This document shows positions 8,006 to 36,370 of a stretch of 64,000 nt of DNA, one piece after another. A program made the translations under genes and the position numbers. How positions within the stretch are numbered: position 1 is the stretch's first letter; each line of letters starts with the position of its first letter. The stretch is from Terriglobus saanensis SP1PR4 (GTDB taxonomy: Bacteria > Acidobacteriota > Terriglobia > Terriglobales > Acidobacteriaceae), in contig NC_014963.1 in the NCBI RefSeq assembly GCF_000179915.2, positions 372,001 to 436,000 of the forward strand, read 5' to 3'. The notes beneath the pieces were generated by a model. The model made no database searches and was not told where the DNA came from. It worked only from the letters and a program-made list of their open reading frames with translations.

Positions 8006-8065
8006 CGTGCCCCATTCTTTCGCGGCTGCATCGTGAAAGGGTGGGGTCGCGCAGAGCGCACAAAC
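8006..8065 (+). repeat. Dispersed hairpin repeat, copy 1 (+ orientation)
   Basis: CGTGCCCCATTCTTTCGCGG at 8006-8025 faces GAAAGGGTGGGG at 8035-8046, followed by a GC-rich tail (TCGCGCAGAGCGCACAAAC). The arms pair with two G-U wobbles, so the hairpin is more stable as RNA read on this strand. It begins four bases after the stop of the TldE-like gene. Other copies are at 8243, 27210, 27755 and 36308. Confidence 0.85.
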
Positions 8066-8096
8066 CTGATTCCTTAGGGAACCCGGGATCGGGTGC

Positions 8097-8127
8097 CCCA
8101 TACATCGCGTTCTTTGCGATGTATGGG
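8097..8127. repeat. Perfect 12-bp inverted repeat within the intergenic repeat cluster
   Basis: CCCATACATCGC at 8097-8108 and GCGATGTATGGG at 8116-8127 enclose a 7-base loop. It sits between two copies of the dispersed repeat; a second small palindrome TGCGC-AA-GCGCA follows at 8130-8141. There is no T tract, so this is not an obvious terminator. Confidence 0.8.
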
Positions 8128-8181
8128 TTATGCGCAAGCGCATCGTTCGCTCGAAGAGCGACCCCACGAAACTTGAAAAAC

Positions 8182-8212
8182 AGATTCCTTCGCTATGCTA
8201 CGGAATGACAAA
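8182..8212 (+). repeat. Second dispersed repeat module, copy 1
   Basis: AGATTCCTTCGCTATGCTACGGAATGACAAAG-type element; its core CCTTCGC..TGCTACGG is palindromic. Near-identical elements occur at 8282-8313 and 36392-36423, always close to the CCCCATTCTTTC repeat. Confidence 0.75.
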
Positions 8213-8242
8213 GAGGTGAAGGAGAAAGTCGTGGCACGCTTA

Positions 8243-8276
8243 CCCACCCTTTCGCGATAAGAAAGAATGGGGCACG
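8243..8276 (-). repeat. Dispersed hairpin repeat, copy 2 (- orientation)
   Basis: Reverse-complement copy of the element at 8006: CCCACCCTTTCGCG at 8243-8256 and GAAAGAATGGGGCACG at 8261-8276, with a shortened loop. Together with copy 1 it brackets the 8.0-8.3 kb intergenic region. It differs from the other copies in not lying right behind a stop codon on its own strand; the nearest - strand gene ends at 8368. Confidence 0.8.
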
Positions 8277-8281
8277 AAATT

Positions 8282-8313
8282 AGATCCCTTCGCTCCGCTA
8301 CGGGATGACAAAA
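8282..8313 (+). repeat. Second dispersed repeat module, copy 2
   Basis: AGATCCCTTCGCTCCGCTACG followed by GGATGACAAAA; same element as at 8182 and 36392. It ends just before the terminator of the DUF2059 gene. Confidence 0.75.
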
Positions 8314-8315
8314 GA

Positions 8316-8353
8316 AAAAGGGCTGGCCAGAAAAGTTCCTCTGGCCAGCCCTT
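8316..8353 (-). terminator. Intrinsic terminator of the DUF2059 gene
   Basis: On the minus strand AAGGGCTGGCCAG and CTGGCCAGCCCTT form a 13-bp stem with a 10-base loop, followed by TTTC and more T. It begins 15 bases after the DUF2059 stop codon. Confidence 0.85.
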
Positions 8354-8367
8354 CCTGTTGGTGAAGC

Positions 8368-8997
8368 TTACTTCTTAGGAGCAGCAGGAGGAGCAGGGGT
8401 GTCCTTCATGTTCTCCGGGGTGCTGATGGTGGGAGGTGTTGCAGCTTTGAGGCTCGTCTGGAACTCCTTCGTGGTCTCGCCGAGCTTCGGCTGAAGGTCT
8501 TTGAGGACGCCCTGGAAGAGCGCGTTGGTCTGTTCGCCGACGGCCTGGGTTTTGTCTACGAAGACCTTGCCTGCGGGCGAGCCGTAGAAGGCTATGATGC
8601 TGTCGAGCTCAGAGTCCGTGAAGTTCGAGGCATAGACGTCGGCCAAGGGCTGGCGGAGCTTCGCGTAATCCAGAGCGGAGGTCGTCATGGCGTCGATCTT
8701 GGCGGTGTAGTCGGTCGCGAGCTTCTGCTGTTCCGGCGTCTTGCCAGCCTGGGCTGCCTGCTCCTGGGCGAGGGAATGAATGCGGCGGCCCGTATTGGTG
8801 AGCATGGTCTGGAGGCCGCTGTCGAGTTTCAGCAGGACGAGGAGCTGTTCCGCCTTCGCGCGCTTCGCAGGTGTGATGGGTGCGGCCGCAGGAGCAGGAG
8901 CGGCAACGACTGGCTTGGCTGCGGAGGGAGCGGTCTGAGCCTCAACAGTCGCGCAGGCGGCTGTGAGAACAAGTGCCAGAGGAAGAAAACGACGCAT
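8368..8997 (-). CDS. Secreted DUF2059 domain protein
   Basis: From ATG 8997 the product is 209 residues: a signal peptide (MRRFLPLALVLTAACATVEAQ), an Ala/Pro-rich linker, then a helical domain with AEQLLVLLKLDSGLQ, YAKLRQPLADVYASNFTDSELDSIIAFYGSPAGKVF and a Pro-rich tail. The phrase FTDSELDSIIAFYGSPAGK is characteristic of DUF2059, a family of exported proteins of unknown function. A longer frame reaches 9114 but its extra 39 residues would sit in front of the signal peptide, so the internal ATG is preferred. A strong terminator follows and the gene appears to stand alone. Confidence 0.85.
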   Translation of the reverse strand: MRRFLPLALVLTAACATVEAQTAPSAAKPVVAAPAPAAAPITPAKRAKAEQLLVLLKLDSGLQTMLTNTGRRIHSLAQEQAAQAGKTPEQQKLATDYTAKIDAMTTSALDYAKLRQPLADVYASNFTDSELDSIIAFYGSPAGKVFVDKTQAVGEQTNALFQGVLKDLQPKLGETTKEFQTSLKAATPPTISTPENMKDTPAPPAAPKK

Positions 8998-9148
8998 GTG
9001 GGTGGAGACTCCGAGGGTAATTTGCATGTCTTGGTAAGTGTAGAGCGGTTGTGGCGTTCCTGTTTGGACGGGCAGCCGAGAAGATTGTTGTTTCTGGCTA
9101 ACTTTTGCTTTCAAGGGTTCGATCTGGGAAAAATCAGGAAATCTAAAA

Positions 9149-10231
9149 TCAGTCGATCTCCGGCAGAATGTGCAGCTTACGGCGAGTGGCGCGGAAGATG
9201 AGGTGGACGATCAGACCGATGGCTCCGCCGAGGATCGTGGCTTCAATCCGATGAGCGAGGACGACTTTCTCCGGCAGGCGGACAATCGCCAGGATAAAGC
9301 AGACATAACCGGTGATGCAGACGACAAACGCTCCATAGTTGACCCGGAGGAGACAGTACCCGGCAAAGAGGAAGAGCAGGACGAGGAGCGCCAGCGTCTC
9401 TCCTGTGGGCCGAACGAAGACAATCAGGACGGTGCAGAGACCCGCTCCCAGCAGCGTTCCCACGAAGCGGTGGACCGTTCGGAGGGTGGTGAGGGCGAAC
9501 TCCGGTTTAGGCAGAAGAATCGCCGTCATCGCCACCCAGTAGGCGTTGCCGAAGTTACGCGTGCGGTAGACAGCGACCGCAATCGCCATGGTAACGGCCA
9601 TCCGCAGGGCGAACTGAAAGTGAATCGACTTCGGCGCGAAATGGGAGAGGAAATACTCCCAGCGCAGCGTGGCGGGGTCGAAGTTCGGATCGGTGAGAGT
9701 GGAGGTTGCACGGGGCACGAACCTCCAGAAGATGAGGATGGCAAGCATCTCCAGAACGCCACCGCAGAACACGCCCGCACCGCGCAGGAGTGCCTGGTGA
9801 AGCGTATCCGTAGGACTTCCGGCAGACGCTGGAGCGGCGGACGAGATGATAAGAAAGACGCAGCACTCCATGCCGACCCAGGCAGCCGCCGGGCCAAGTG
9901 AGTTCGCCATGCCGTACAAGAAAGCCCAGAGGATGGCGATGGCGGCGAGGAGCAGCGTGTGGTCGCGCGCGGCTGCGCCCACCATGGCCGAAATCGTGAT
10001 GCCGACGGCTGCTGCGAGCATCGGACCCCAGCGACGGAAGAGTGGCTGCTGGAACGAGCCGAAGCCGACACACATGGCTCCGCTGGAGAGCAGAACGCCA
10101 GTGCCGGGATAGCCGAGACGGATTGCAACGAAGAGCGGAATGCCGATGGCAGGCATACAGAGAAGCGCGTGCAAGGGCTCGCACTGCGTCCAGTCGAAAC
10201 GGAAGACCTTCTGTCTTATGGAATCTGCCAC
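9149..10231 (-). CDS. FUSC family inner-membrane protein
   Basis: The 360-residue protein is strongly hydrophobic, with roughly ten membrane segments in two groups separated by a central soluble stretch (about residues 175-215, LTDPNFDPATLRWEYFLSHF). The second group contains the pattern YWVAMTAILLPKPEFALTTLRTVHRFVGTLLGA, diagnostic of the FUSC (fusaric acid resistance/YccS-like) module. Members are thought to be efflux or envelope-permeability proteins for aromatic acids and similar compounds. The start is a GTG at 10231 with no good Shine-Dalgarno, so the N-terminus is less certain. No adaptor or outer-membrane partner lies next to it. Confidence 0.85.
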   Translation of the reverse strand: MADSIRQKVFRFDWTQCEPLHALLCMPAIGIPLFVAIRLGYPGTGVLLSSGAMCVGFGSFQQPLFRRWGPMLAAAVGITISAMVGAAARDHTLLLAAIAILWAFLYGMANSLGPAAAWVGMECCVFLIISSAAPASAGSPTDTLHQALLRGAGVFCGGVLEMLAILIFWRFVPRATSTLTDPNFDPATLRWEYFLSHFAPKSIHFQFALRMAVTMAIAVAVYRTRNFGNAYWVAMTAILLPKPEFALTTLRTVHRFVGTLLGAGLCTVLIVFVRPTGETLALLVLLFLFAGYCLLRVNYGAFVVCITGYVCFILAIVRLPEKVVLAHRIEATILGGAIGLIVHLIFRATRRKLHILPEID

Positions 10232-10512
10232 TAGGGGTACGATGCCGGAACGGACGCAGGCATTACTTCCCGCGTTTTCGTGAACGCTTCATGCAGTAAA
10301 AAGATACGTCCGCAATCGGGACTGACAGGAGTTCCAGAATGGATCTCAAGAGAAGAAACGCTCTCTGCATCCTGTTTCGGCGATGAAATAATCGCTGTGC
10401 TTCCGGACGATGCGGTAACGCTGGAGGGGCTCACTAAAGGACGACTTTCGCCCCGACAAAGCGGAACACCCCAGCATAGCGCTGGGGTGCTCAGTCAGAT
10501 CCGGAGGTAGCT
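10232..10512. other. Intergenic stretch before the small membrane-peptide gene
   Basis: No convincing long gene. A 15-codon frame at 10339-10386 starts with ATG after an AGGAG at 10327-10331 (MDLKRRNALCILFRR), which may be a leader peptide or chance. Competing frames on both strands lack family resemblance. The hairpin at 10467-10489 is listed separately. Confidence 0.4.
10467..10489 (+). promoter_or_regulatory. Hairpin in the leader of the 38-residue peptide gene
   Basis: CACCCCAGC at 10467-10475 and GCTGGGGTG at 10481-10489 form a perfect 9-bp stem with a 5-base loop, 23 bases before the peptide start codon. It lacks a T tract, so it is more likely an mRNA stability or translation element than a terminator. 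Confidence 0.55.
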
Positions 10513-10629
10513 ATGGCCAATTGGTTCAAGGTCAAAGCTACGGGTTCAGTGGAAGTGCCAGGACTAGTGATCCTCGCACTCTTCGCCGTGCTTGTAGCAG
10601 TTGCAGTAGCGACAATTCGATTGTTGTGA
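10513..10629 (+). CDS. Small single-pass membrane protein, 38 residues
   Basis: ATG 10513 is preceded by GGAGG with ideal spacing. The product is MANWFKVKATGSVEVPGLVI continuing LALFAVLVAVAVATIRLL. It has a short basic/polar head of about 15 residues and one hydrophobic helix (about residues 17-35) ending near an Arg. A leader hairpin lies upstream and a strong intrinsic terminator starts 18 bases after the stop, so this is a self-contained transcription unit. I do not recognise a family. It could be a small membrane regulator, or a holin-like or type I toxin-like peptide; none of these is shown by the sequence. Confidence 0.65.
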   Translation: MANWFKVKATGSVEVPGLVILALFAVLVAVAVATIRLL

Positions 10630-10647
10630 CTGTAAGGCTATAAAACC

Positions 10648-10689
10648 GACCTCGGATGGTTTCCCGCCCATCCGGGGTCTTCTTGTCTT
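10648..10689 (+). terminator. Intrinsic terminator of the small membrane-protein gene
   Basis: GACCTCGGATGG at 10648-10659 pairs with CCATCCGGGGTC at 10668-10679 (one mismatch) and is followed by TTCTTGTCTT. Confidence 0.8.
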
Positions 10690-10747
10690 ATGAGATGCGT
10701 TTTGAGAATGGATGTCAACCAATTCTCTTCAGGATTTTTCGTCATGC

Positions 10748-10786
10748 AAAAAGAGCCGAAGCGATGATCGCCCCGGCCCTTTTTGT
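10748..10786 (-). terminator. Intrinsic terminator of the ferritin-like gene
   Basis: On the minus strand AAAAAGGGCCGGGGCGAT and ATCGCTTCGGCTCTTTTT form an imperfect stem ending in a T run, about 15 bases after the stop codon of the ferritin-like gene. Confidence 0.75.
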
Positions 10787-10800
10787 TGTTGCGTCTGAGC

Positions 10801-11271
10801 TTACGCGCCTTGCGTAATGACCTTGGGAACGTCGATCCCCAGGGCTGTGGCGAGGTCGTGCTGGTGCTCCTGTTCTTGCACGAGGATCTTGCGGATCTGC
10901 TCTGCGAGGGCGAAGTGGCCCAGGGCCTCGGCCTGCTTGACGCGCTGGCGGTAGGCGGCGATGGTTTCGGTCTCGTTGTCGAGGTCGAAGCGAAGCATCT
11001 CTTCCGGCTTGTCGGAGAGTTTGACTTCTTTCGGGGTAGCCGTGGGCATGCCGCCGAGATAGTCCACCTGGTCCGCAATGATCAGTGCGTGCTGCAGCTC
11101 TTCCAGTGCATGCTTCTTCAGTTCCGCGGCAATGTTCATGTACTGTGCGCCCTTGAGCACGGTCGAGTACACGGTGTAGGCGATTACGGCCTGGTACTCG
11201 CGGGAGAGATCTTCATTGAGCGCGTCGATCAGGTCCTTGAGCGCTTTGTCGTCGTTCTTTTCGTCTGCCAT
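10801..11271 (-). CDS. Ferritin-like / bacterioferritin-family protein
   Basis: The 156-residue protein is all-helical with paired Glu and His of a di-iron four-helix bundle: NEDLSREYQAVIAYTVYS in helix 1, KKHALEELQHALIIADQVDYLGG in helix 2, ETETIAAYRQRVKQAEALG in helix 3 and QIRKILVQEQEHQHDLATALG in helix 4. The E..H (EELQH, QEQEH) spacing fits ferritin-like proteins. It probably binds iron in the cytoplasm for storage or oxidative protection; whether it forms a cage is not visible. Two ATGs are adjacent; the second (11271) has GAGGAG at five-base spacing and is chosen. Confidence 0.85.
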   Translation of the reverse strand: MADEKNDDKALKDLIDALNEDLSREYQAVIAYTVYSTVLKGAQYMNIAAELKKHALEELQHALIIADQVDYLGGMPTATPKEVKLSDKPEEMLRFDLDNETETIAAYRQRVKQAEALGHFALAEQIRKILVQEQEHQHDLATALGIDVPKVITQGA

Positions 11272-11335
11272 CATTTCTCCTCAATGTTGCTGTGTGGTTG
11301 GATGTCGCCAAGCGCGGAAGTGTCGCGTCCGGGGT

Positions 11336-12523: not shown

Positions 12524-12630
12524 CTTCGGATCTCCACTCGCAACTTTAGCGGACAGGACGCGTTACGTCTTGTGACGTGGCAACACTGTCCTCTGCTGCC
12601 AGCATCTTAAGTGCAGTCGGAGATGCCACC

Positions 12631-26563: not shown

Positions 26564-27205
26564 ATGAAGATTGTGATCTTTGGTGCGAGCGGAATGGTCG
26601 GCGGCGGCCTGTTGCTGGAGGCGCTGAAGGATGCGGACGTGACCGAGGTGATCGTCGTAGGACGGTCGCCTGTTGGTGTAACCCACGCGAAGCTGCTTGA
26701 GGTCCTTGTCTCCGATCTGGCAGAGGGCGCGCGCGAAATCTCTGGAATGGACGCGTGTTTCTTTACCGTAGGCGTGACGGCCTCTGGAAAGAACGAGGCG
26801 GAATACACCCGGCTGACCTATGACCTGACGCTGAGTGTCGCTGAGGCGCTCGTGGAGCGAAACCCCGCAATGACGTTTGTCTATGTCTCCGGCCAGGGAA
26901 CAGGCGGCAAGGCCATGTGGGCTCGTGTGAAGCGGCGAACGGAGGATGCTCTGCTGGCGATGCCGTTCCGCGCGGCGTATATGTTTCGTCCCGGCTTCAT
27001 CGTACCCGTCGGTGTGAAGTCGAAGACCAAGCTCTACCAGAGGATGTACACGGTCATGGGACCAGTACTCCCACTTATCCGGAAGATGTTTCCGAAGTCG
27101 GTCGTCAACTCCGATGAACTAGGGCGGGCCATGTTGAAAGTAGCAAAAAGTGGTTTCACAAAAAAAGTATTAGAAACATCCGACATTGCCGGATTAAGGG
27201 AATAG
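26564..27205 (+). CDS. NAD(P)-binding Rossmann protein (HTATIP2-like short epimerase family)
   Basis: The 213-residue protein starts MKIVIFGASGMVGGGLLLEA, a glycine-rich Rossmann turn (GASGMVG), and contains DACFFTVGVTASGK, FVYVSGQGTGG and a C-terminal DELGRAMLKVAKSG helix. This fits small atypical SDR/NAD(P)H-binding proteins related to HTATIP2; no catalytic YxxxK is evident, so the activity is unclear. It is divergent from the GH20 gene. A dispersed hairpin repeat begins five bases after the stop codon. Confidence 0.82.
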   Translation: MKIVIFGASGMVGGGLLLEALKDADVTEVIVVGRSPVGVTHAKLLEVLVSDLAEGAREISGMDACFFTVGVTASGKNEAEYTRLTYDLTLSVAEALVERNPAMTFVYVSGQGTGGKAMWARVKRRTEDALLAMPFRAAYMFRPGFIVPVGVKSKTKLYQRMYTVMGPVLPLIRKMFPKSVVNSDELGRAMLKVAKSGFTKKVLETSDIAGLRE

Positions 27206-27209: not shown

Positions 27210-27253
27210 CGTGCCCCATTCTTTCGCGGCTTTATCGCGAAAGGGTGGGGTCG
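27210..27253 (+). repeat. Dispersed hairpin repeat, copy 3 (+ orientation)
   Basis: CGTGCCCCATTCTTTCGCGG at 27210-27229, loop TTTAT, and CGCGAAAGGGTGGGGT. It starts five bases after the stop codon of the Rossmann gene. On the opposite strand its arm supplies the TAA stop (27232-27234) of the broken RAYT frame. Confidence 0.88.
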
Positions 27254-27719
27254 GGATGATCGTGGCTGGACCGTCGATTCGCCTTGGCCAAAAAACCTCG
27301 ATAACTACTCCAAGGCCACTCCTCCGGTTGATTCACAAGACCACGCTTCACCGGATTGTGATGGATATACGTAAACGTCTTCCATATAGCATTCTCTTCC
27401 GAAATATTCTCTTCCGTTCAGCGGCTTTGAAGACATCAGGGGCATTTTTCTTGAGACTACGGGCGAAGCGTTGCTTCAATACTTGAAGTACGAGAGAGTT
27501 TGTTTTCACATCAGGTGGTGCCAGGACAAGGTGAAAGTGCTCGGGCATGATGACGTAAGCTTCGAGCGGTGTTTCGTATTTCGTCGTGGTATCGACAAGG
27601 ATTTCTTGAAACAGATCGCGCAGTCGCGGCGTACCAAGAAGAGGTTGACGCCGAAAGCAGCTTACCGTAACGAAGTGGAGATCGCCAGGGTTATGTCTTC
27701 GTTCAAGACCTGTTGGCAT
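27232..27719 (-). pseudogene. REP-associated tyrosine transposase (RAYT, Y1_Tnp), frameshifted
   Basis: The frame from ATG 27719 encodes MPTGLERRHNPGDLHFVTVSC...YVIMPEHFHLVLAPP, with the HUH-type EHFHLVL motif of TnpA_REP/IS200-like enzymes, and then goes out of frame (ending RRLRISITIR at 27348). The expected C-terminal block resumes in another frame, YIHHNPVKRGLVNQPEEWPWSS, and runs to a TAA at 27232-27234 inside the neighbouring repeat. The segment between the two (about 27380-27420) contains a duplicated AAGAGAAT and appears to lack the usual W..R.YDF part, so a small deletion as well as a frameshift is likely. Inverted copies of the dispersed repeat flank the gene, as expected for a RAYT and its REP sequences. 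It is inactive as written. Confidence 0.85.
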
Positions 27720-27754: not shown

Positions 27755-27814
27755 GTTCGCGCTTCGCGCGAATACCCCACCCTTTCGCGATGAAGCCGCG
27801 AAAGAATGGGCCCC
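27755..27814 (-). repeat. Dispersed hairpin repeat, copy 4 (- orientation)
   Basis: Reverse-complement copy: tail GGTTCGCGCTTCGCGCGAAT, then CCCCACCCTTTCGCG (27775-27789) and CGCGAAAGAATGGGCCCC. Read on the minus strand it follows the aspS stop codon by 9 bases, and with copy 3 it forms inverted flanks of the RAYT pseudogene. Confidence 0.85.
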
Positions 27815-27823: not shown

Positions 27824-29677
27824 TTAGCTGCGTACTGCGGTTTTCAGATGCAGATCGCGCATCTGCTGCTCCGTAGGCTCGCTGGGGGCCTGGACCATCA
27901 GGTCAATCGCCTTGGCTGTCTTTGGGAACGCGATCACTTCGCGGAGGCTCGAAGCTCCTGCCAGCAGCATTACGATGCGGTCGAGGCCGAGCGCAATACC
28001 GCCGTGCGGCGGCGTGCCGTACTCCAGCGCTTCGAGGAAGAAGCCGAAGCGTTCGCGTGCCTCTTCGTCCGTCATGCCAAGCGAGCGGAAGATCTCCGAC
28101 TGCACGTCTTTGCGATGGATACGGATCGAGCCTGAGCCCAGTTCCAGGCCGTTGAGCACGACGTCGTAGGCAAGCGCGCGGACCGAACCCTTGTCGTTAT
28201 AGAGAGCGCCGGATTTGATGTCGTCTTCGTGCGGTGAGGTGAAGGGATGGTGCGCCGCGTCCCAGGTCTTCTTCTCCTCGTTGAACTCGTACATGGGGAA
28301 GTCGGTAACCCAAAGGAAGCGGTAGTCGTCCGCAGTGCCGGTCTTGTCGAAGAGCTTGTGCTTGTCCGCGAACTTCTTTGCGAGCTCGATGCGGAGCGCG
28401 CCGATGCGCTTCGGAATCCACTGGCGATCGAAGTTCCACAGCGCAGGCGTACCGAGCTTCGGCGTGATGACGACCGCAAGATCGTTGGTGGTGAAGCTGT
28501 TGCCGTTGAAGGCGATGGTGGTGGCGTTGAGGTGCGAGCCGATCTCTTCCGCGAGCGGAACGAAGGCCTCGCTGGTGCGCAGGCGCGTGATATCGAGCGC
28601 GTCCAGACCGGAGTCGCCGAAGAAGGCGCGGATCTCCGAAAGCAGCGACTTGCGCGCCGTGCCGGAGAGTTCTCCAACGTTGGGAATCACAAATCCGAAG
28701 ACAGGCAGGGCAGGTTCGATGCGCAGGCTCTCGCGCAGCTCCGGCGTGAGAACTTCGGTGAGCTCGGCCATGTGCGGCAGACGCATGTCGGGCTTGTCGA
28801 TGCCGTATTTCGTGATGGCCTGGTCGTAGGTCATGCGCGGAAAGGGCGTAGGGATCGTCACATTCGCGGCTGCGAAGGCTGCGGTAAGAAAGCGTTCGGC
28901 AACACCGAAGACGGTCTCCTGTGTGGGAAAAGAGATTTCCAGATCGATCTGTGTGAACTCAGGTTGGCGGTCGGCGCGGAGATCTTCATCGCGGAAGCAG
29001 CGCGCGATCTGGAAGTAACGGTCGAAGCCGCCCACCATGAGGATCTGTTTGAAGATCTGCGGCGACTGCGGCAGAGCATAGAAAGTGCCGGGGTGAACGC
29101 GGCTGGGAACCAGGTAGTCCCGCGCGCCTTCGGGCGTGGAGCGCGTCAGCATCGGCGTCTCAATCTCCAGGAAGCCCTCGGACGAGAGTTGCCCGCGGAT
29201 CGCCTGTGCGACCTTGTGGCGCATCAGGAAGTTCGCCTGCATCTCCGGTCGGCGCAGGTCGAGATAGCGGTACTGGAGACGCAGCTCTTCGTTCACGATG
29301 GCGTCTTCCGCAGGCGAGAACGGAGGAGTCTTTGCATCGGAGAGCAGAAGAAGCTCGCTGACGACGACTTCAATATCACCCGTCGGCATGTTCGGGTTTT
29401 CAAGGCCGGCAATACGCTGGCGCACCGTACCGATGGCGGCGACGACGAACTCAGGGCGCGCGGCCTCCGCCTTGGCGAGAGCTTCGGTGGATTCGGACTT
29501 GTCGACGACGACCTGGGTGATGCCGGAGCGGTCGCGGAGGTCGAGGAAGACGAGGTCGCCGTGGTCGCGGCGGCGATTGACCCAGCCCATAAGGATGACG
29601 GATTGGCCGGCGTGAGCGGAACGAAGGTCGCCGCACATATGCGTGCGCTGATGAGTGCCTAAAAAGTCGAGTGTCAC
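27824..29677 (-). CDS. aspS: Aspartyl-tRNA synthetase
   Basis: The 617-residue protein has the bacterial AspRS layout: N-terminal anticodon-binding OB fold (HMCGDLRSAHAGQSVILMGWVNRRRDHG), class II motif 2 (FQIARCFRDEDLRADRQPEFTQIDLE), a GAD insertion domain (about residues 290-410) and motif 3 (GGIALGLDRIVMLLAG). It charges tRNA-Asp in the cytoplasm; whether it also charges tRNA-Asn is not decided here. The start is set at GTG 29677 because the conserved N-terminus begins VTLDFLGTHQRTHMCG; the open frame extends 88 codons further without homology. It is divergent from the esterase-like gene. Confidence 0.95.
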   Translation of the reverse strand: MTLDFLGTHQRTHMCGDLRSAHAGQSVILMGWVNRRRDHGDLVFLDLRDRSGITQVVVDKSESTEALAKAEAARPEFVVAAIGTVRQRIAGLENPNMPTGDIEVVVSELLLLSDAKTPPFSPAEDAIVNEELRLQYRYLDLRRPEMQANFLMRHKVAQAIRGQLSSEGFLEIETPMLTRSTPEGARDYLVPSRVHPGTFYALPQSPQIFKQILMVGGFDRYFQIARCFRDEDLRADRQPEFTQIDLEISFPTQETVFGVAERFLTAAFAAANVTIPTPFPRMTYDQAITKYGIDKPDMRLPHMAELTEVLTPELRESLRIEPALPVFGFVIPNVGELSGTARKSLLSEIRAFFGDSGLDALDITRLRTSEAFVPLAEEIGSHLNATTIAFNGNSFTTNDLAVVITPKLGTPALWNFDRQWIPKRIGALRIELAKKFADKHKLFDKTGTADDYRFLWVTDFPMYEFNEEKKTWDAAHHPFTSPHEDDIKSGALYNDKGSVRALAYDVVLNGLELGSGSIRIHRKDVQSEIFRSLGMTDEEARERFGFFLEALEYGTPPHGGIALGLDRIVMLLAGASSLREVIAFPKTAKAIDLMVQAPSEPTEQQMRDLHLKTAVRS

Positions 29678-29731
29678 AGTCTTTCTATTGTACGAAGTTT
29701 GCGGCGCGGGACGGGTGAGCCGAAAAAAGCA

Positions 29732-29760
29732 TTGACGAGAACTCTGATTACAAGCACAAT
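29732..29760 (+). promoter_or_regulatory. Candidate promoter of the esterase-like gene
   Basis: TTGACG at 29732-29737 and CACAAT at 29755-29760 are separated by 17 bases, about 75 bases before the start codon at 29837. Confidence 0.5.
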
Positions 29761-29836
29761 GTAGTTCTAATTGCGGCGCCGTGTTTCTATTGGCTGTATC
29801 GGTGCGCAACGGAAAAGTAAGACAGGAGGCAATCGC

Positions 29837-30913
29837 ATGCTGGCAACATCGAAACAAGTGCTTAGAACATTGGCCGTCTTCTTCCTGCTGGGTGTCCTCA
29901 GCGCCCGCCCGGCCTTTTCCGCCGACATCGCTAAGGGACAACTGGTAGACCGCGAGATCCAGTCGAAGAACTTTACTCAGAGCAAGATCGGCGTGAGTCC
30001 CGTGCGCAGGTTGGCAGTCTATCTCCCCGCGGGCTATGACGGATCGCAGAAGCGGTATCCGGTGATCTACTTTCTCCCTAGCCCCTTCGACAACTTCCGC
30101 GCGATCTTTGATTCGATGGGCGCACAGGCAGTGCTGGATCGCGCCATCGCCGACGGCACCATCGGTAAGTTCCTCTTCGTCACAGTGGACATGACAACTC
30201 CTCTAGGCAGTTCCTGGTATGTGAACTCTTCCGCAACGGGGAACTGGGAAGACTTCATGGTGCAAGAGCTTGTGCCTTACGTCGATGCCAACTTTCGCAC
30301 GCTGCCCACGCGCGACTCACGCGGGATCGCCGGACACTTCATGGGAGGCTATGGCGCGATCCGTTTTGGGATGAAATATCCGCAGATCTTTGGTTCTGTT
30401 TACGCGCTGCATCCGGTCGGTACGGGGAGCGGCGTAAAGGTGCTGGCGTCTCTGCCGAACTTCGAGCTGATGGAGCAGGCAAAGACGCTGGACGACGTTC
30501 GCAAGGATGGATACTCCACGATCTTTACCTCCATCTTTCAAGCGCACATTCCGAATCCCGACAAGCCGCCTTTGTACTTCGACTTCCCCGCACATCGCGT
30601 GGCGGGGGAGTTGGTCATCGATGCCAAGGTGATGGATCGCCTGCGGGAGAACTTCTTTCTGGAGTCGCTGATCGGGAAGTACGCCGACAATCTCAAATCG
30701 CTGCGTGGGCTCAAGTTCGACTGGGCGCGCAGCGATTCGAACTGGGACCATGTCTACTCAAACCACGCGCTGACGCACAAGCTGAACGAGTACGGCATTG
30801 TGCATGAAGCGGAAGAGTACAACGGCACATGGGGAGGCGAGGCGAACTGGAGCGCAGAGGGACGTGTTCGTACAGATCTGCTGCCTTTCTTTCAGGAGCA
30901 TCTGGTGTTTTGA
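29837..30913 (+). CDS. Esterase-D/antigen-85-like secreted protein lacking the nucleophile serine
   Basis: From ATG 29837 (AGGAGG upstream) the 358-residue product has a signal peptide ending PAFSAD and an alpha/beta-hydrolase of the esterase family: RRLAVYLPAGYDGSQKRYPVIYFL, FLFVTVDM, ELVPYVDANFRT. At the nucleophile elbow, where relatives read GHSMGG, it reads GHFMGG: Phe168 (TTC, 30338-30340) replaces Ser. At the usual His position it reads EEYNGTWGG, without a His. The fold is intact and uninterrupted, so this looks like a catalytically dead but maintained protein, possibly a binding protein; a single TTC-to-TCC change would restore Ser. Its stop abuts the stop of the truncated toxin gene. 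Confidence 0.8.
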   Translation: MLATSKQVLRTLAVFFLLGVLSARPAFSADIAKGQLVDREIQSKNFTQSKIGVSPVRRLAVYLPAGYDGSQKRYPVIYFLPSPFDNFRAIFDSMGAQAVLDRAIADGTIGKFLFVTVDMTTPLGSSWYVNSSATGNWEDFMVQELVPYVDANFRTLPTRDSRGIAGHFMGGYGAIRFGMKYPQIFGSVYALHPVGTGSGVKVLASLPNFELMEQAKTLDDVRKDGYSTIFTSIFQAHIPNPDKPPLYFDFPAHRVAGELVIDAKVMDRLRENFFLESLIGKYADNLKSLRGLKFDWARSDSNWDHVYSNHALTHKLNEYGIVHEAEEYNGTWGGEANWSAEGRVRTDLLPFFQEHLVF

Positions 30914-31432: not shown

Positions 31433-31460
31433 CGGATAGCATTTTATATACACCCGAAGC

Positions 31461-32261
31461 TCATTGGCAGGAAGCCTCGGAGCACTCGTCTTTGCGGTAA
31501 CCGTCCATATAGAGGGTCATCGGAATGGGCAGCAGGTCGCGGTAGAGACCCATTTTGAAAAAGAACGTGCCACTGGAGAGATAGCCGGAGTCGGCGCTAT
31601 AGGCAGTTACGCCTTCAAAGTGTGCGACCTGCTTGTCGTTGAAGGTAATGTCGATGAGACCGTCGCTGCCCGGTGAGAAGCGGTTGATAAAACGGAAGTT
31701 GAGCCATTGGCCGCGCACCTCGTCGTGCGTGCTGAAGAGCTTGGCCTCTCCCGCATCGTTCTTGCGGGTAATGAACAGTTCGCCGTTGACATAGCGGATG
31801 GCGAGGACGGGATTGTTCGGCAGGCACCGGCCGGTGAAGCAGACCTGTCTCCACTGCGCAAGGACCAGGCGGTCGTCCACGATGGGAAAGTCCGTAGGGA
31901 GATAGAGGCTGAAGCTCTGGGCGTAGGTGTGGTGCGGTCGCGACCAGAAGCGCCAGTGCTCCATGAGTTCGTCGCGTTCGCTCGCGGGCCCCATGTTGCT
32001 GGCGGGATCGAGCATGTCCCCGGGATGGAGCGTGATCTGACCGGTGTGGTGTCCATCGTGGACGACCTCGTGCTGGACTGAAAACGCGCTGGGGACCAGC
32101 CTGCTGGTCATCCAGATGGGGCTTAGTGCGGGGGATTCAAAGTTGTCCGCAACGTGGACGGGACGGTGGCGAACACGTGAGAGATAAGCGGTTGCCGCCA
32201 GGACGGCGACGAGGAAGAGAGTGAAGAGGAGAGTAGCGACTCGAATCAAGCGGTTTTTCAT
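31461..32261 (-). CDS. Polysaccharide-lyase-like secreted or membrane-anchored protein (heparin lyase I type)
   Basis: The 266-residue protein has an N-terminal membrane or signal segment (LIRVATLLFTLFLVAVLAATAYLS) and a beta-jelly-roll domain: DNFESPALSPIWMTS, GPASERDELMEH, YAQSFSLYLPTDFPIVDDRLVLAQWRQV, then FFFKMGLYRDLLPIPMTLYMDGY. The SERDEL motif and the overall pattern fit the polysaccharide lyase/heparin lyase I-like Pfam group, but I cannot define the substrate. The start is ATG 32261, 11 bases after the hisS stop, so it is probably co-transcribed with hisS. Confidence 0.6.
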   Translation of the reverse strand: MKNRLIRVATLLFTLFLVAVLAATAYLSRVRHRPVHVADNFESPALSPIWMTSRLVPSAFSVQHEVVHDGHHTGQITLHPGDMLDPASNMGPASERDELMEHWRFWSRPHHTYAQSFSLYLPTDFPIVDDRLVLAQWRQVCFTGRCLPNNPVLAIRYVNGELFITRKNDAGEAKLFSTHDEVRGQWLNFRFINRFSPGSDGLIDITFNDKQVAHFEGVTAYSADSGYLSSGTFFFKMGLYRDLLPIPMTLYMDGYRKDECSEASCQ

Positions 32262-32272
32262 GAGCAACTTCT

Positions 32273-33586
32273 TTAGCGCAGTGTGCTTGGGAGATCGCTG
32301 CGCGCAATCTTTTCTTGTTCCCCGGTGGCGAAGTTTTTCACGGTGATTTCGCCTGAGGCGACCTCGTTTTCACCAAGTATAAGGATGCTGCGGGCGACAC
32401 GGTCGGCCACTTCAAAGGATTTTTTCAGGCGGAAGGTACCGTCGCCCACTTCGATGCTGAGACCTTCGCGACGCAGTTCACGGGCGAGCGCGAGAGCGGC
32501 GGCGTTCTGCTCCACGCCCATGGGAGCGATGTAGGCATCCAGTTTTTTCTCTGCGGCTTCGGTGGTCTGTGCCTGCAGGGTGAGGATGAGGCGGTCTTCG
32601 CCGATAGCAAAACCGATGCCGGGGGCCTTGGGTCCGCCGATCATTTCGGATAGGCCGTCGTAGCGGCCGCCGCCGAGCAGCGCGTTCTGTGTCCCCAGGC
32701 CAGTTTCTACGGTGAACTCGAAGGTGGTGCGTGTGTAGTAATCCAGGCCGCGAACAAGGCGCGGATTCACGGTGTACGGAACGCTGCAGGCATCGAGCGC
32801 GGCGAGCACCTGGGCAAAGTGGCTCTTCGAATCGTCATCGAGGTAGTCGGCGATCTTGGGCAGCGCGTTGATAAGCTCCTGGTCGGCCTCGTCCTTGCTG
32901 TCGAGGACGCGGAGGGGATTGGTCTCGGCGCGGCGCTGGTTGTCTTCGCACATCAGGTGTTTGACGTGCGCAAGCGCTTCGCGGAGAGCGGCAACGTAGC
33001 GCGGACGGTCCGTCGCGGAGCCCACTGAATTAAGTGTCAGCTTCCAGCCCCTGAACTCGTTGCTTTCACTGGCGCGCTCGATCCCCAACTCGTCGAGTAG
33101 AGTCGCAAGCATCTCCAGGACTTCGGCATCGCGGAGCGGCGATTCGCTGCCTGATGTGACGGGCCCGATAACCTCCGCACCAATCTGGAAGAACTGGCGA
33201 TAGCGGCCTTTTTGCGGGCGCTCGCGTCGGAACTGCGGGCCAATGTAATAGAGCTTCTGGAGATGGCCTGTATCGCCAAGCTTATGTTCGATATAGGCGC
33301 GGACGACACCGGCGGTGTTTTCCGGGCGAAGCGTGAGGGACTGCGCTTTTTCACTGGCGGCGCGGGCGCGGTCCTCCCATGTGTACATCTCCTTGGAGAC
33401 GATGTCGGTCTCTTCGCCAACGCCGCGGGCAAAGAGTTCCGTGGATTCCAGGATCGGCGTGCGGATCTCGCCGAAGCCGTAGCGGGAGAAGACGGAACGG
33501 GCGGTGGCTTCGACGCGGTTCCAGAGGGCGGTTTCGGGGGGGAGCAGATCACGGGTGCCGCGTACGGCTTTGAGCGTAGAAGACAT
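32273..33586 (-). CDS. hisS: Histidyl-tRNA synthetase
   Basis: The 437-residue protein is a typical HisRS: KAVRGTRDLLPPETALW at the N-terminus, class II motif 1 region YGFGEIRTPILESTELFARG, motif 2 region YYIGPQFRRERPQKGRYRQF, the two histidine motifs (LVRGLDYYTRTTFEF and GGGRYDGLSEMIGGP) and motif 3 GIGFAIGEDRLIL, then the anticodon-binding domain. It charges tRNA-His. The downstream polysaccharide-lyase-like gene follows after 11 bases. Confidence 0.96.
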   Translation of the reverse strand: MSSTLKAVRGTRDLLPPETALWNRVEATARSVFSRYGFGEIRTPILESTELFARGVGEETDIVSKEMYTWEDRARAASEKAQSLTLRPENTAGVVRAYIEHKLGDTGHLQKLYYIGPQFRRERPQKGRYRQFFQIGAEVIGPVTSGSESPLRDAEVLEMLATLLDELGIERASESNEFRGWKLTLNSVGSATDRPRYVAALREALAHVKHLMCEDNQRRAETNPLRVLDSKDEADQELINALPKIADYLDDDSKSHFAQVLAALDACSVPYTVNPRLVRGLDYYTRTTFEFTVETGLGTQNALLGGGRYDGLSEMIGGPKAPGIGFAIGEDRLILTLQAQTTEAAEKKLDAYIAPMGVEQNAAALALARELRREGLSIEVGDGTFRLKKSFEVADRVARSILILGENEVASGEITVKNFATGEQEKIARSDLPSTLR

Positions 33587-33905
33587 GAGGGTTCTAGTTT
33601 AGCGGAGCAGGAATGGAAGCTGTGCCCTCTACTCAGCTCGGGGACGCTTGGGGCACGTCGCGGCCGTCAGGCAGAAGAGCGTTTTTTCGAGTTTGCTTCC
33701 AGGAACCGAGGTGGCCTCTGCTTCAAGATGGGGAAAACCTGGCTATTCCTCCGAAGTTGTAAAGATCACATGACTTAGATCGTGTCTGTGCACGGAAGCG
33801 GGCAGATTTGGGGGGGGCCTAAACCGTATTCTTTGCCTAAAGACAACTGACGCTATCAACGTCCCTTCTCGCAAGGTTAATAACGCATCACGGGAAGTGG
33901 GCTCC
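33587..33905. other. Intergenic region upstream of the Crp/Fnr regulator gene
   Basis: No gene is supported. It holds the divergent promoters of hisS and the regulator gene. A run of eight G at 33810-33817 (TTTGGGGGGGGCC) lies about 90 bases upstream of the regulator start and is the longest G tract I noticed; it could vary in length. No clear CRP-type palindrome was found. Confidence 0.4.
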
Positions 33906-34601
33906 ATGGAAGCACCTTTGACGAATCGTTTTCTGAGTACTTTACCGCCGGCCTATCGCAAGTCACTGATGGATCGCATGGTTCCAGTGGCGATGCCGCG
34001 CAGGATGAGTGTCTATCAGCCGGGAGAGGTGCCAAGATTTTCCTACTTCGTGACCTCTGGCTTGGTTTCTGTGGTGTCGAACCTGGAAGACGGGACGATG
34101 ACGGAGATCGAGGTTGTAGGTGCGGAGGGAATCTCTCCCTGGCTGCAGCTGCTCGGCAACCTCTCGGTGAATAGCAGCTGCTTTATGCAGGTCGCGGGAA
34201 CGGCCCTCCGTCTTCCTTTTGCGGAGATGCGGGAAGAGTTTGAAAATAATATAGATATGCGGCGGTCGGTGCTGGCCTTCGCGGAGCACCAGGCACTCGT
34301 TATGGGGCAGCTGGCCGCGTGCAATCGCCGCCATATCGTGGATCAGCGTCTGGCGCGTTGGCTTCTGATGGTGCAGGACCGTGTGCAGACGGAAGAACTG
34401 GCGCTGACGCAGGAGTTTCTGGCGGCAATGCTGGGTTCGCGCCGGACTTCGGTGGCGCTGGCTGCGGGCGAGATGCAGAAGGCAGGTCTCATTCGCTATC
34501 GGCGCGGCAAGGTCAAGATCATCGATCATGCTGGCCTGGTGAAGCGCGCCTGTGAGTGCTACACGGTGATGCAGGGCCTGATGAACGGACTCTATAAGTA
34601 G
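33906..34601 (+). CDS. Crp/Fnr family transcriptional regulator
   Basis: The 231-residue protein has a cyclic-nucleotide-binding-like beta barrel (VYQPGEVPRFSYFVTSGLVSVV, EGISPWLQLLG), a long dimerisation helix and a C-terminal winged helix with LTQEFLAAMLGSRRTSVALAAGEMQKAGLI. The barrel lacks the FGE....RSA cAMP pocket of true Crp and the N-terminal Cys set of Fnr, so its signal is unknown. In this group the HTH reads ..GSRRTSV... as in many acidobacterial paralogues. ATG 33906 has GGAAG about ten bases upstream. Confidence 0.88.
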   Translation: MEAPLTNRFLSTLPPAYRKSLMDRMVPVAMPRRMSVYQPGEVPRFSYFVTSGLVSVVSNLEDGTMTEIEVVGAEGISPWLQLLGNLSVNSSCFMQVAGTALRLPFAEMREEFENNIDMRRSVLAFAEHQALVMGQLAACNRRHIVDQRLARWLLMVQDRVQTEELALTQEFLAAMLGSRRTSVALAAGEMQKAGLIRYRRGKVKIIDHAGLVKRACECYTVMQGLMNGLYK

Positions 34602-34637
34602 GTCTTTCTTCCAGGGGTCGTCGTCGCGGCCGTGGAA

Positions 34638-34647
34638 GAATGAACGT
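34638..34647. promoter_or_regulatory. Putative TetR operator half, copy at the regulator start
   Basis: GAATGAACGT lies immediately before the TetR start codon. The same ten bases occur upstream of the reductase gene at 35217-35226, where they extend into the palindrome GAACGTTC. Confidence 0.4.
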
Positions 34648-35217
34648 ATGGAATCCAAACCAAAGCCTAAGAAGCGGGATGCCATCCTCGATGCGATGCT
34701 CGATGTCGTCGTGGAGGGAGGTTTCCACGATGCTCCGATGTCGCTGATTGCCAAGCGATCGGGAGCGAGCGCGGGCGTGATTTACCACTACTTTGCCAGC
34801 AAAGAAGAGATCATTCAGGCACTCTATGAACGCATCTACACGCTGAAGCGCACCAGCTTTTTTGAAGGCTACTCCCCGGAGATGGACGCCAAAGAGGCCT
34901 GCATTCGCGTGTGGATGAACTGGTATGCGTTCTATCGCAAGCACCTGCGCGAGATGCGTTTCCTGGAGCAGTACGAGCATGCGGGCTTTGTTTGTCCGCC
35001 CGCGAAAGAACCTCTCGGAGAAGTGGAATTGGCCTTCATGCGTCGCTTCAGCGGTCGCTCGAAGGGCGGCATTTTGAAAGACTGGCCCGAGGAAGTTCTG
35101 ATGGAGATGTCGATGGGACTGGCGTCCCGCCTGGCGCAGCAGCCGCGTAAGCTGCCGCAGTCTGTTCTAAAAGAAGTAGCGGAGCAGGTGTGGGAGTCGA
35201 TTCGGTCGGGAAAGTAG
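34648..35217 (+). CDS. TetR/AcrR family transcriptional regulator
   Basis: The 189-residue protein has the TetR N-terminal HTH (KRDAILDAMLDVVVEGGFHDAPMSLIAKRSGASAGVIYHYFASKEEIIQALYERI), followed by a ligand-binding helical domain with a typical MNWYAFYRKHLREMRFLEQYEH stretch. It is followed after 35 bases by a reductase gene with a shared candidate operator, so it probably represses itself and that gene; the inducer would be related to the reductase substrate. Confidence 0.92.
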   Translation: MESKPKPKKRDAILDAMLDVVVEGGFHDAPMSLIAKRSGASAGVIYHYFASKEEIIQALYERIYTLKRTSFFEGYSPEMDAKEACIRVWMNWYAFYRKHLREMRFLEQYEHAGFVCPPAKEPLGEVELAFMRRFSGRSKGGILKDWPEEVLMEMSMGLASRLAQQPRKLPQSVLKEVAEQVWESIRSGK

Positions 35218-35232
35218 AATGAACGTTCGGTT
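35217..35232. promoter_or_regulatory. Putative TetR operator upstream of the reductase gene
   Basis: GAATGAACGTTCGGTT contains the palindrome GAACGTTC at 35221-35228, a common TetR-family operator core, and repeats the 10-mer found just before the TetR start codon. Confidence 0.5.
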
Positions 35233-35252
35233 TATCGTGTAGGATGATCTCC

Positions 35253-36302
35253 ATGAGTGGAGATCTTGTTCTTGTCACCGGTGGAACCGGTTTTATTGGC
35301 GCACATTGCATCGCGCAGCTCTTCCATGCGGGATATCGCGTTAGGACGACGGTTCGTTCGTTAGAACGGGAAGCCGATGTTCGCGCGATGCTGAAGGTGG
35401 CGGGTTGCGAACCGGGCGCGGAGCTTTCCTTCGTAGCGGCCGATCTGATGGCCGATGCGGGCTGGGCCGAGGCGACGGCAGGTTGTACCTACGTGCTGCA
35501 TGTCGCGTCCCCCTTTCCCCTGGGCGTCCCTAAGCACGAAGACGACCTGATCGTGCCCGCACGCGAAGGTGCTCTGCGCGTTCTGCGGGCTTCTCGCGAC
35601 GCCGGGGTAAAGCGCGTGGTGCTTACGTCTTCGTTCGCTGCCATCGGCTATGGCCACAAGCCGCAGGACGCGCCGTTCGACGAGACGGTCTGGACCGATG
35701 TGGATGGCGGTGGCGTGAGCGCCTATGCGAAGTCCAAGACGCTGGCCGAGCGCGCCGCGTGGAATTTCATCGCCCGCGAAGGCGGCGATCTGGAGCTCTC
35801 CGTTGTGAATCCCGTGGGAGTCTTTGGGCCAGCCCTAGGACCGGATTTTTCGACTTCGATTGTTCTGGTGGAGCGCCTGATGAACGGGGACGTACCCGGT
35901 CTGCCGCGCATCTCTTTCGGCGCGGTGGATGTGCGGGATGTCGTGGACCTCCACCTGCGTGCGATGGTCCATCCTGCGGCAAAAGGTGAGCGTTTTCTGG
36001 CGGTTGCGGGCGAGTTTCTCTCGTTCATAGAGATCGCCAGGATACTCAAGCACCACATGGGTGGAGCGGCCAAACGTGTACCGCTTCGGCAACTTCCGGA
36101 CTGGATGGTACGCGTTGTCGCGTTGCTGGATCCGTCTGTGAAGCTAATTCTGGGGGAGCTTGGCAAGAAAAAGGGCGCCAGCAATGCCAAGGCCAGGCGC
36201 GTGCTCGGATGGACGCCGCTCACGAATGAGGAGTCCATCGTTGCTACGGCGGAGAGTTTGGTGCGGCTGGGGTTGTTGAAGGACTCTGCGAAGAAGGCCT
36301 GA
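35253..36302 (+). CDS. NAD(P)-dependent extended SDR reductase (dihydroflavonol/aldehyde reductase-like)
   Basis: The 349-residue protein begins MSGDLVLVTGGTGFIGAHCI with the GxxGxxG nucleotide motif, followed by RVRTTVRSL, the serine region VVLTSSFAAIGYG and the catalytic YAKSKTLAE (YxxxK). This is the extended SDR subgroup of dihydroflavonol 4-reductase and methylglyoxal/aldehyde reductases. ATG 35253 has AGGA at good spacing; an earlier ATG at 35244 does not. It sits behind the TetR gene with a shared operator, which suggests induction by a toxic carbonyl or xenobiotic. A dispersed repeat starts five bases after the stop. Confidence 0.9.
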   Translation: MSGDLVLVTGGTGFIGAHCIAQLFHAGYRVRTTVRSLEREADVRAMLKVAGCEPGAELSFVAADLMADAGWAEATAGCTYVLHVASPFPLGVPKHEDDLIVPAREGALRVLRASRDAGVKRVVLTSSFAAIGYGHKPQDAPFDETVWTDVDGGGVSAYAKSKTLAERAAWNFIAREGGDLELSVVNPVGVFGPALGPDFSTSIVLVERLMNGDVPGLPRISFGAVDVRDVVDLHLRAMVHPAAKGERFLAVAGEFLSFIEIARILKHHMGGAAKRVPLRQLPDWMVRVVALLDPSVKLILGELGKKKGASNAKARRVLGWTPLTNEESIVATAESLVRLGLLKDSAKKA

Positions 36303-36307
36303 AGACT

Positions 36308-36370
36308 CGTGCCCCATTCTTTCGCCAGCTTTACCGGAGAAAGGGTGGGGTCGCGCGGAGCGCACAAACG
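36308..36370 (+). repeat. Dispersed hairpin repeat, copy 5 (+ orientation)
   Basis: CGTGCCCCATTCTTTCGCC at 36308-36326 faces GAGAAAGGGTGGGG, followed by the tail TCGCGCGGAGCGCACAAAC, the same as copy 1. It starts six bases (36308) after the reductase stop codon and points the same way as the gene. Confidence 0.87.

Follow-up and report, generated by a model that had tools for sequence, protein, structure and literature searches.

Why do copies of one hairpin lie directly behind stop codons in the soil bacterium Terriglobus saanensis SP1PR4, pointing the same way as the gene before them? The window, by which we mean the whole 64,000-nt stretch analysed (GCF_000179915.2, NC_014963.1, positions 372,001-436,000 of the forward strand), holds five sites that match an 18-nt consensus at a tolerance of 3 mismatches, against 0.12 expected from shuffles, and all five hairpins of the original prediction are present. 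In four of them, 5, 5, 6 or 10 nt separate the stop codon from the GTG at the foot of the hairpin, which is oriented like the gene, which agrees with the 5-10 bases first proposed. Copy 1 (8005-8083, plus; repeat match 380005-380083 and fold) consists of a hairpin at 8007-8047 and a tail; its GTG at 8007 is 5 nt past the TAA (7999-8001) of a gene with a PmbA/TldA C-terminal domain (6349-8001, plus). The same 5-nt gap separates the GTG at 27211 in copy 3 (27210-27251, plus; this and the remaining copies by consensus match and fold) from the TAG (27203-27205) of an NAD-dependent epimerase-like gene (26564-27205, plus). Copy 5 (36307-36386, plus), again hairpin and tail, has its GTG at 36309, 6 nt past the TGA (36300-36302) of an NAD-dependent epimerase/dehydratase gene (35244-36302, plus). 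Copy 4, on the minus strand, occupies 27774-27813 rather than the 27755 given earlier; its foot is mutated and lies 10 nt past the stop (27824-27826) of a class II tRNA synthetase gene of D/K/N type (27824-29941, minus; started at 29677 by our gene caller). The fifth hairpin, copy 2 (8241-8275, minus), is the exception it was said to be: an inverted partner with a shortened stem, it is co-oriented with the minus gene ending at 8368 but is 92 nt from that stop, beyond the gene's terminator-like hairpin (8315-8356, minus), which was also recovered in a terminator scan (place 380002). None of the window hairpins is followed by a T tract, as had been noted, and Rfam gave no match in the window at gathering score, with chance-level matches only around copy 1.

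Each hairpin makes up the 5' end of a repeat of about 78 nt, here called A, found at no fewer than 169 places in the genome. This is a lower bound that lacks window copies 8241- and 27774-: the structure-model search scored 150 candidates, and the pattern matches are those listed, 100 of 143 and 100 of 157. A strict pattern finds 69 copies genome-wide and none in a reversed control. Our first count covered 165 of the 169 places, of which 162 lie outside called genes, and the null models use the 161 intergenic copies for which a gene was called on either side. In an alignment of 29 copies, the ends of A are YYGTGCCCC and GGGGTCGCGC, TCGCGC or a close variant comes after the hairpin, and no copy has a T tract. 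A sits at one end of the mosaic A-tail-(C)-B, whose B and C parts were searched in regions that had been chosen for A. In the window, by sequence and annotation, copy 1 is followed by a C repeat with a foot identical to that of A (8091-8129, plus; GGGTGCCCCATACATCGCG...) and by B repeats at 8182-8212 and 8282-8312 (both plus), and another B repeat (36390-36422, plus) closes the mosaic of copy 5. By manual count, only about 16 of 161 records have an inverted A in the same gap, and five opposite-strand pairs within 200 nt occur among the 169 places, a set that misses the pairs of 8241- and 27774-. We therefore rejected A as a REPIN, a unit of two inverted REPs, since most copies have no inverted A partner.

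As a short palindrome with many extragenic copies, and with inverted copies flanking both REP-associated tyrosine transposase (RAYT) genes of the genome, A belongs among the RAYT-associated repeats (REP/TIR, broadly understood). The window RAYT (27348-27719, minus; PF01797, NF047646 and reading frames) is broken. PF01797 matches at 27402-27680 (E 7.8e-8), NF047646 reaches 57.2 bits, under its cut-off of 80, in a short open piece, and the C-terminal signature runs on in another frame toward 27270. Its inverted ends are copies 3 and 4 (27211+ and 27813-), 37 nt long and 97% complementary; thus two of the four window copies behind stops are the ends of a single RAYT unit. The intact RAYT, at 465 kb, carries a different variant of A in 35-nt perfect copies. 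Of 13 RAYT loci in five other genomes, 4 are flanked on either side by hairpins whose foot is identical or similar. From sequence, we regard RAYT as the putative mobiliser of A.

The reading we favour, at a probability of roughly 0.4, is that a single-strand transposase of the RAYT type spreads a non-autonomous mosaic repeat whose outer end is A, and that copies close to stops are kept as mRNA 3'-end stem-loops. Mosaics would enter short gaps behind genes, and insertions into coding or promoter sequence would be lost. Those with the A end just past a stop would be retained because the hairpin could serve as a 3'-end stem-loop, a barrier to 3'-5' exonucleases once transcription has ended, probably through Rho or further downstream, at genes without their own intrinsic terminator. 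Dar and Sorek reportedly found in 2018 that the mature 3' ends of Rho-terminated mRNAs are trimmed back to a stem-loop; by analogy, a hairpin without a T tract just past a stop would act like such ends. Searching the literature for Rho and trimmed 3' ends gave no match. Such a role is plausible. It is nearly as likely that A is purely selfish and does nothing for the host, its placement reflecting bias in insertion or tolerance. Single-strand insertion of the RAYT type would then occur in short gaps behind genes, perhaps into the non-template strand at sites of transcription end, and insertions that break genes, promoters or terminators would be lost; closeness to stops would follow from short gaps and orientation from transposition chemistry.

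Mapped genome-wide against stops and strand, A copies are not random in distance or orientation. Of 161 intergenic copies, 75 start 2-15 nt past a same-strand stop, whereas copies placed at random in those gaps average 11.8, with a maximum of 23 in 2000 trials; feet are misplaced or loosely placed in four of the 161 (2440810, 679128, 4998724 and 4660759), one of them within the 75. Once a pyrimidine tract is allowed for, the A end begins about 1-12 nt behind stops. Exceptions are common: 39 of the 161 copies have an opposite-strand gene 5' of them, and among the 122 in-sense copies 47 are more than 15 nt away. About half of A copies thus lie directly past a stop in the orientation of the gene, which is striking, but this habit of such repeats is partly known. 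Since the outward-facing end in a convergent gap is in sense by geometry, only tandem gaps test orientation, and there 40 copies are sense and 22 antisense (p = 0.03), against a purely selfish repeat. The polarity of the mosaic argues the same way: in convergent gaps the A end is closer to its stop than the B end to its own in 38 of 45 (p 3e-6), with 30 A ends and 8 B ends within 15 nt of a stop. In 82 convergent gaps the 3' side of A is never within 15 nt of the other stop. For the selfish repeat speaks the shortness of repeat-free convergent gaps (median 64 nt, n = 23), where insertions would often land near a stop. Equal-weight random insertion into them places 46% within 15 nt, compared with 61% observed; weighting by gap length lowers the expectation in convergent gaps to 10%.

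Genes on the A side rarely have an intrinsic terminator, which argues for the 3'-end reading and against the selfish repeat. Where A lies behind only one stop of a convergent gap (49 gaps), 9 A-side genes have an intrinsic terminator compared with 21 of the other genes, at least four of these 21 being formed by the B repeat itself; the discordant gaps divide 1 vs 13 (p 0.002). The deficit in tandem gaps, 2/27 vs 19/127, is not significant (p 0.37). This deficit would offer a direct test of the 3'-end reading.

Loss of the hairpin in the sister genome G009, a 70% complete metagenome assembly, favours the selfish repeat. Of 106 segments prepared, the comparison used 84, each taken from a sense-oriented copy no more than 20 nt past a stop. 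By manual reading, 45 orthologous sites include 8 with an intact A-type hairpin, 2 with a degraded one and 4 with the tail alone; most sites lack an intact hairpin, and the hairpin is therefore dispensable and freely lost. Twelve measurable orthologous gaps without an A hairpin span 2, 57, 57, 59, 63, 80, 141, 149, 149, 151, 169 and 184 nt, and most of the longer ones contain B or C repeats. Three sites (1594020/L249, 830531/L252 and 1262758/L262) have a stem that differs but still pairs, spaced similarly, which favours the 3'-end reading instead. In G173, which belongs to another genus and has a quite different stem, 12 of 19 copies are in sense within 21 nt of a stop (null mean 2.7, maximum 9), a recurrence in favour of the 3'-end reading. 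The rule is absent from families that share the foot, with 0/17 in G068, 0/11 in G136 and 0/10 in G120 in sense within 21 nt, and we rejected it as universal for the superfamily. The original prediction had offered a 3' mRNA-end function or insertion targeted to 3' ends; the placement rule is real genome-wide and recurs in G173, and neither result decides between selection and insertion bias.

The stem arms of A covary, which speaks for the 3'-end reading. We used an arm-swap test, since counts of gap-free double stem changes are inflated by one subfamily with a stem one base shorter. Native arms fold at -22.9 in T. saanensis compared with -21.1 when swapped (lowest swap -21.65), and at -26.1 compared with -21.8 in G173. 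In T. saanensis the effect is modest, with 40 non-consensus 5' arms folding at -23.0 with their own 3' arm and -22.4 with the consensus 3' arm. The proposed G-U asymmetry stands as an observation: the sense strand folds more strongly in all five window copies (-26.1/-16.1, -28.0/-21.5, -22.4/-21.2, -23.9/-17.8 and -14.8/-11.3 kcal/mol, sense/antisense), with a small gain in the copy at 36309. As a sign of RNA function it fails, because G068 and G136, which lack stop placement, show the same sense-over-antisense stability and because stem changes are symmetric between strands. Raw counts of stem changes show no strand bias (27 antisense-compatible, 29 sense-compatible), nor do C-G pairs (11 G-to-A, 9 C-to-T), and the missing sense-strand bias again fits a selfish repeat. 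The density of A falls with distance from the assumed origin, which resembles a DNA-level process and also favours that alternative. Relative to the fork, 65 copies run with it and 104 against (origin at 0, terminus assumed at 2.25 Mb), or 69 and 100 by a noisy skew estimate, with 39 to 43 in convergent gaps and 26 to 49 among stop-proximal copies; we claim no replication-strand bias, because the terminus was chosen after looking. Symmetric stem mutations, the modest covariation, hairpin loss in G009, the 46% of the equal-weight null, the non-significant tandem deficit, the terminators formed by B and the foot-sharing families without the rule all weigh against a 3'-end function.

A broader version of the 3'-end reading seems unlikely: that some Acidobacteriaceae have adopted a transposase-linked hairpin as a general 3' end for their genes, with A replacing the intrinsic terminator of some eighty T. 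saanensis genes and held by compensatory change during sequence turnover, and likewise in G173 with its different stem. If it were true, mobile DNA would supply a genome's 3'-end signals. A translational effect like that of E. coli REPs, in which the hairpin would hinder the terminating ribosome and lower expression, is improbable; the spacing is in the same range (75/161 within 15 nt) and PMC12306157 cites the E. coli effect, but a cost to the gene predicts loss rather than accumulation. That A is itself an intrinsic terminator is more improbable still. It is a strong GC-rich hairpin right after stops, its genes show the terminator deficit, and at site 480160/L254 an intrinsic terminator in G009 corresponds to an A mosaic in T. 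saanensis, a swap that also fits the 3'-end stem-loop. We rejected it because the T tract is missing from the window copies and from the 29-copy alignment, and at site 1180901 an intrinsic terminator follows A in T. saanensis and also lies behind the orthologous gene in G009. Finally, although genes were called with an in-house hexamer caller and copies found partly by structure model, chance or artefact is extremely improbable given the strict pattern with its empty control, 75 copies against 11.8 expected, and a tail-only search, within regions chosen for A, in which 80 of 167 intergenic matches are in sense within 20 nt of a stop.

Returning to the 3'-end stem-loop, if these hairpins define mRNA 3' ends, then these bacteria would draw their termination or stability signals from mobile repeats, and not from point mutation. 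If they do not, A offers a clean natural case for asking how a single-strand transposon settles near stops in one orientation, a placement of REPs already reported in the available text of PMC3733652. Our literature search found no description of the A family, its polarity or its terminator deficit.

The closest known systems are the TIRtrons, RAYT-family (TIRYT/RAYT) genes flanked by TIRs that are unrelated to GTAG REPs, some TIRs forming repeat families (Di Nocera et al. 2013, PMC3733652). The T. saanensis RAYTs resemble them in having flanking inverted repeats. The available text of that paper names T. saanensis tsa 392 along with other Acidobacteria, and going by its gene number we guess that tsa 392 corresponds to the second RAYT, the one at 465 kb; the same text does not name the A family or the window RAYT, nor describe the position or orientation of TIR repeats. 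The motif GGGGWSAS, which according to that text holds for some TIRs only, is approached loosely by A: its consensus GGGGTCGC is one position off, and one aligned copy reads GGGGTCAC. A also resembles the REP/BIME/REPIN elements of Enterobacteria, Pseudomonas and Stenotrophomonas, which, as far as the sources available go, are short imperfect palindromes with many extragenic copies, RAYTs with inverted flanks, mosaics and 3'-end placement; REPs less than 20 bp from gene 3' ends, G-T pairs and complementary stem changes are described in the parts available of PMC3733652 and PMC2817692. Unlike them, A lacks the GTAG or CGTC superfamily tag at either end of its alignment, placing it outside those superfamilies, and has the foot YYYGTGCCCCAT / TGGGGT; its unit is also polar, one of the two ends facing the stop, and mostly lacks an inverted partner. 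In E. coli, 446 of 4,072 REPs (RepRanger), or 260 of 496 as cited there, are no more than 15 nt from a stop (PMC12306157, available part), compared with 75 of 161 for A, which places its 5' end at the stop and in none of 82 convergent gaps its 3' side near the other one.

The original prediction placed five copies of a hairpin in the window (8006, 8243, 27210, 27755 on the minus strand and 36308) and held that four of them sit directly behind a stop codon, pointing with the gene. All five are present. On the plus strand three begin 5, 5 and 6 nt after the stop, and on the minus strand one begins 10 nt after it. The fifth, already named as an exception, lies 92 nt past the stop of a minus-strand gene (end at 8368), with that gene's own terminator-like hairpin in between. 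The hairpin, with a GTG foot, forms the 5' end of a repeat of about 78 nt (A), and alignment of 29 copies gave the consensus YYGTGCCCCATTCTTTCGC - loop - GCGAAAGGGTGGGG - TCGCGCRGAGCGCACAAACCNGATCTNTNAGGAA. Regardless of location, copies have mainly pyrimidines in the 3–4 bases preceding the GTG; this tract seems to belong to A, so the true stop-to-A gap would be 3–4 nt below the values quoted here. A strict A pattern gave 69 matches and its reversed control none. Four pooled searches found at least 169 places in the genome, a lower bound; two of the window's five copies are missing from this set. A search of the window against Rfam gave no match. A copies become sparser away from an origin that a noisy skew would put near 77 kb, with successive counts per 0.25 Mb of 31, 30, 28, 18, 18, 11, 13, 4, 9, 5 and 2.

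With genes called by a custom hexamer caller, 162 of 165 A copies are intergenic, and a same-strand gene precedes 123 copies but not 39. Among the 161 copies with both neighbours called, 75 follow a stop in sense at a distance of 15 nt or less. Randomising position and orientation within each copy's own gap gives 11.8 (s.d. 3.2, maximum 23, 2000 trials), and randomising position alone gives 12.9. Because the present gap includes the insert, repeat-free gaps were used as a second null. In convergent gaps 61% (50/82) were within 15 nt, against 46% from repeat-free gaps at equal weight per gap and 10% with length weighting; the size of the stop-proximal excess hinges on the null chosen. The distances also differ in shape from this null, with 59% observed versus 23% expected at 4–15 nt and 2% versus 23% at 0–3 nt, in part because of the pyrimidine tract. 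Tandem gaps hold 40 copies in sense (25 within 15 nt) versus 22 antisense, and in one of the latter A comes within 15 nt of the gene that follows. The original observation is right, and it extends beyond what was seen in the window.

A is part of a mosaic, frequently ordered A-tail-(C)-B, where B is GCAGATCCCTTCGCTNCGCTACGGGATGACAAA and C begins GGGTGCCCCATACATCGCG. Within the fetched regions, which were picked for A though other gaps were also included, A-holding gaps contain 91/98 intergenic B matches and 77/81 intergenic C matches. The two ends are unlike. The A end is closer to its stop than the B end in 38 of 45 convergent gaps with both (median 12 versus 47 nt). The 5' end of B falls within 15 nt of a stop in 3/75 and is without stop anchoring; a facing stop lies no more than 15 nt from its 3' end in 16/77, and in antisense tandem gaps with a recognised B the B end is that close in 3/12. 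Read on the opposite strand (window 8282–8312 and others), B folds into a hairpin with CTGCTTTT after it. In two genera, GTGCCCCAT-foot hairpins enclose a second palindromic module, GGGGTCCCCGGCGARC...GCTGGGGTGG, with two exact matches in T. saanensis regions (4660717 and 4722773) and four in another genome, G120 (L224, L226, L230, L234); slightly altered inserts of this kind are also seen.

Intrinsic terminators were found in 5/54 convergent genes with A within 20 nt versus 10/36 in repeat-free gaps (p = 0.04), and in 2/27 versus 19/127 for tandem genes (p = 0.37). Among convergent gaps where A follows one of the two stops (n = 49), terminators numbered 9 on the A side and 21 on the other, at least 4 of the 21 being the B repeat itself; where one side only had a terminator, the counts were 1 and 13 (p = 0.002). 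With B standing as the opposite gene's terminator in these four or more gaps, the mosaic may serve both flanking genes, with different ends.

A search with a window protein returned relatives named mostly Terriglobus, Granulicella, Edaphobacter or Acidobacteria. Among 40 relatives, close A copies occur only in a sister genome of the same genus, G009, which is 70% complete. Probing it with 84 gene 3' ends beside stop-proximal A gave 47 matches and 45 readable sites, classified by eye. In eight the A-type hairpin is intact and similarly spaced (L249, L252, L256, L258, L262, L278, L285, L300), with a different, re-paired stem in L249, L252 and L262, and in two it is degraded (L276, L281). Four retain just the tail, immediately after the stop, as excision of the hairpin would leave it (L243, L251, L253, L291), about eight have a C-type hairpin, and the remainder show B repeats, a terminator or no recognised element. 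These classes indicate that A partly predates the split, yet was often lost. The 12 measurable gaps without the A hairpin span 2 to 184 nt. Site 480160 carries the mosaic in T. saanensis and an intrinsic terminator behind the G009 orthologue, and site 1180901 has an intrinsic terminator in both genomes.

Same-foot hairpins were read in four further genomes (G173, 20 copies; G136, 14; G068, 18; G120, 18), and those inside called genes or without a neighbour were excluded from the counts. G173 belongs to another genus of the same family; of its 19 intergenic copies, 12 follow a stop in sense at 21 nt or less, where the null gives a mean of 2.7 and a maximum of 9. None do so in G136 (0/11), G068 (0/17) or G120 (0/10); 9/10 in G120 are in sense, four of these at 23–29 nt. 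Many G173 copies (L181–L200) have a second small hairpin, ATCGTTTGC GGAA GCAAACGACCG, after the main one, and its stem changes pairwise between copies. Two G068 contigs, C46 and C65 (L213–L216), each carry several foot-bearing hairpins, none of which follows a stop in sense at 21 nt or less; those on C65 lie beside a REP-associated tyrosine transposase (RAYT) gene.

Native arms outpair arms swapped between copies in 5/5 genomes, the margin being small in G068 and G136. All five window copies fold more stably in sense than in antisense, and mean stability is higher in sense in 5/5 genomes. The original prediction cited G-U wobbles on the transcribed strand in suggesting an mRNA 3'-end or transcript-stability function, or insertion targeting of 3' ends. 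The same asymmetry holds in G068 and G136, whose copies do not follow stops; it therefore characterises the superfamily and does not speak for an mRNA function. Across 116 gap-free copies, 29 stem changes keep a sense G-U and 27 pair in antisense only, both counts being inflated by one shorter-stem subfamily, and C-G pairs changed C-to-T 9 times versus G-to-A 11 times. Whether the hairpin benefits the gene through a 3'-end role or is tolerated selfish DNA is close to an even call.

Copies at 27211 (plus) and 27813 (minus) are inverted ends 522 nt apart, enclosing a reading frame that matches Y1_Tnp (E = 7.8e-8). This frame scores 57.2 bits against the NCBIfam REP-associated tyrosine transposase model, below the cut-off of 80, and the C-terminal RAYT signature falls in another frame, which indicates a broken gene. 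The sole other Y1_Tnp match in the genome, at 465 kb, is open (161 aa) and flanked by perfect inverted copies of GGGTGCCCCATGTCCGGATTTTCGGACATGGGTTT, a variant with A's foot. Class-wide, the foot pattern GTGCCCCAT-N-TGGGGT is present in 56/200 genomes, nine of them with at least 10 matches and with paired stems that differ widely. With the pattern reversed as a control, 10 genomes gave 12 matches, and an isolated match may therefore be fortuitous. At 13 RAYT loci in five other genomes, same- or near-foot hairpins stand on both sides of 4 and one side of 1, with none seen near the other 8, one of which is on a short contig.

The consulted sections of the literature on REP/RAYT/Acidobacteria, TIRtron/TIRYT and REP orientation versus the stop codon, and of the best 10 of 14 results on T. 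saanensis repeats, contain no description of the A family or its polarity. PMC3733652 places REPs mainly downstream of genes, with convergent REPs mostly <20 bp from both 3' ends, takes G-T pairs in REPs to suggest transcription, and names a T. saanensis TIRYT (a RAYT-family gene flanked by inverted repeats), tsa 392. In E. coli, 446 of 4,072 REPs lie within 15 nt of a stop, according to PMC12306157, which also cites ribosome effects of such REPs. RAYT-associated repeats like A are a known kind; this family, the polarity of its placement and the shortage of terminators next to it add to what is described.
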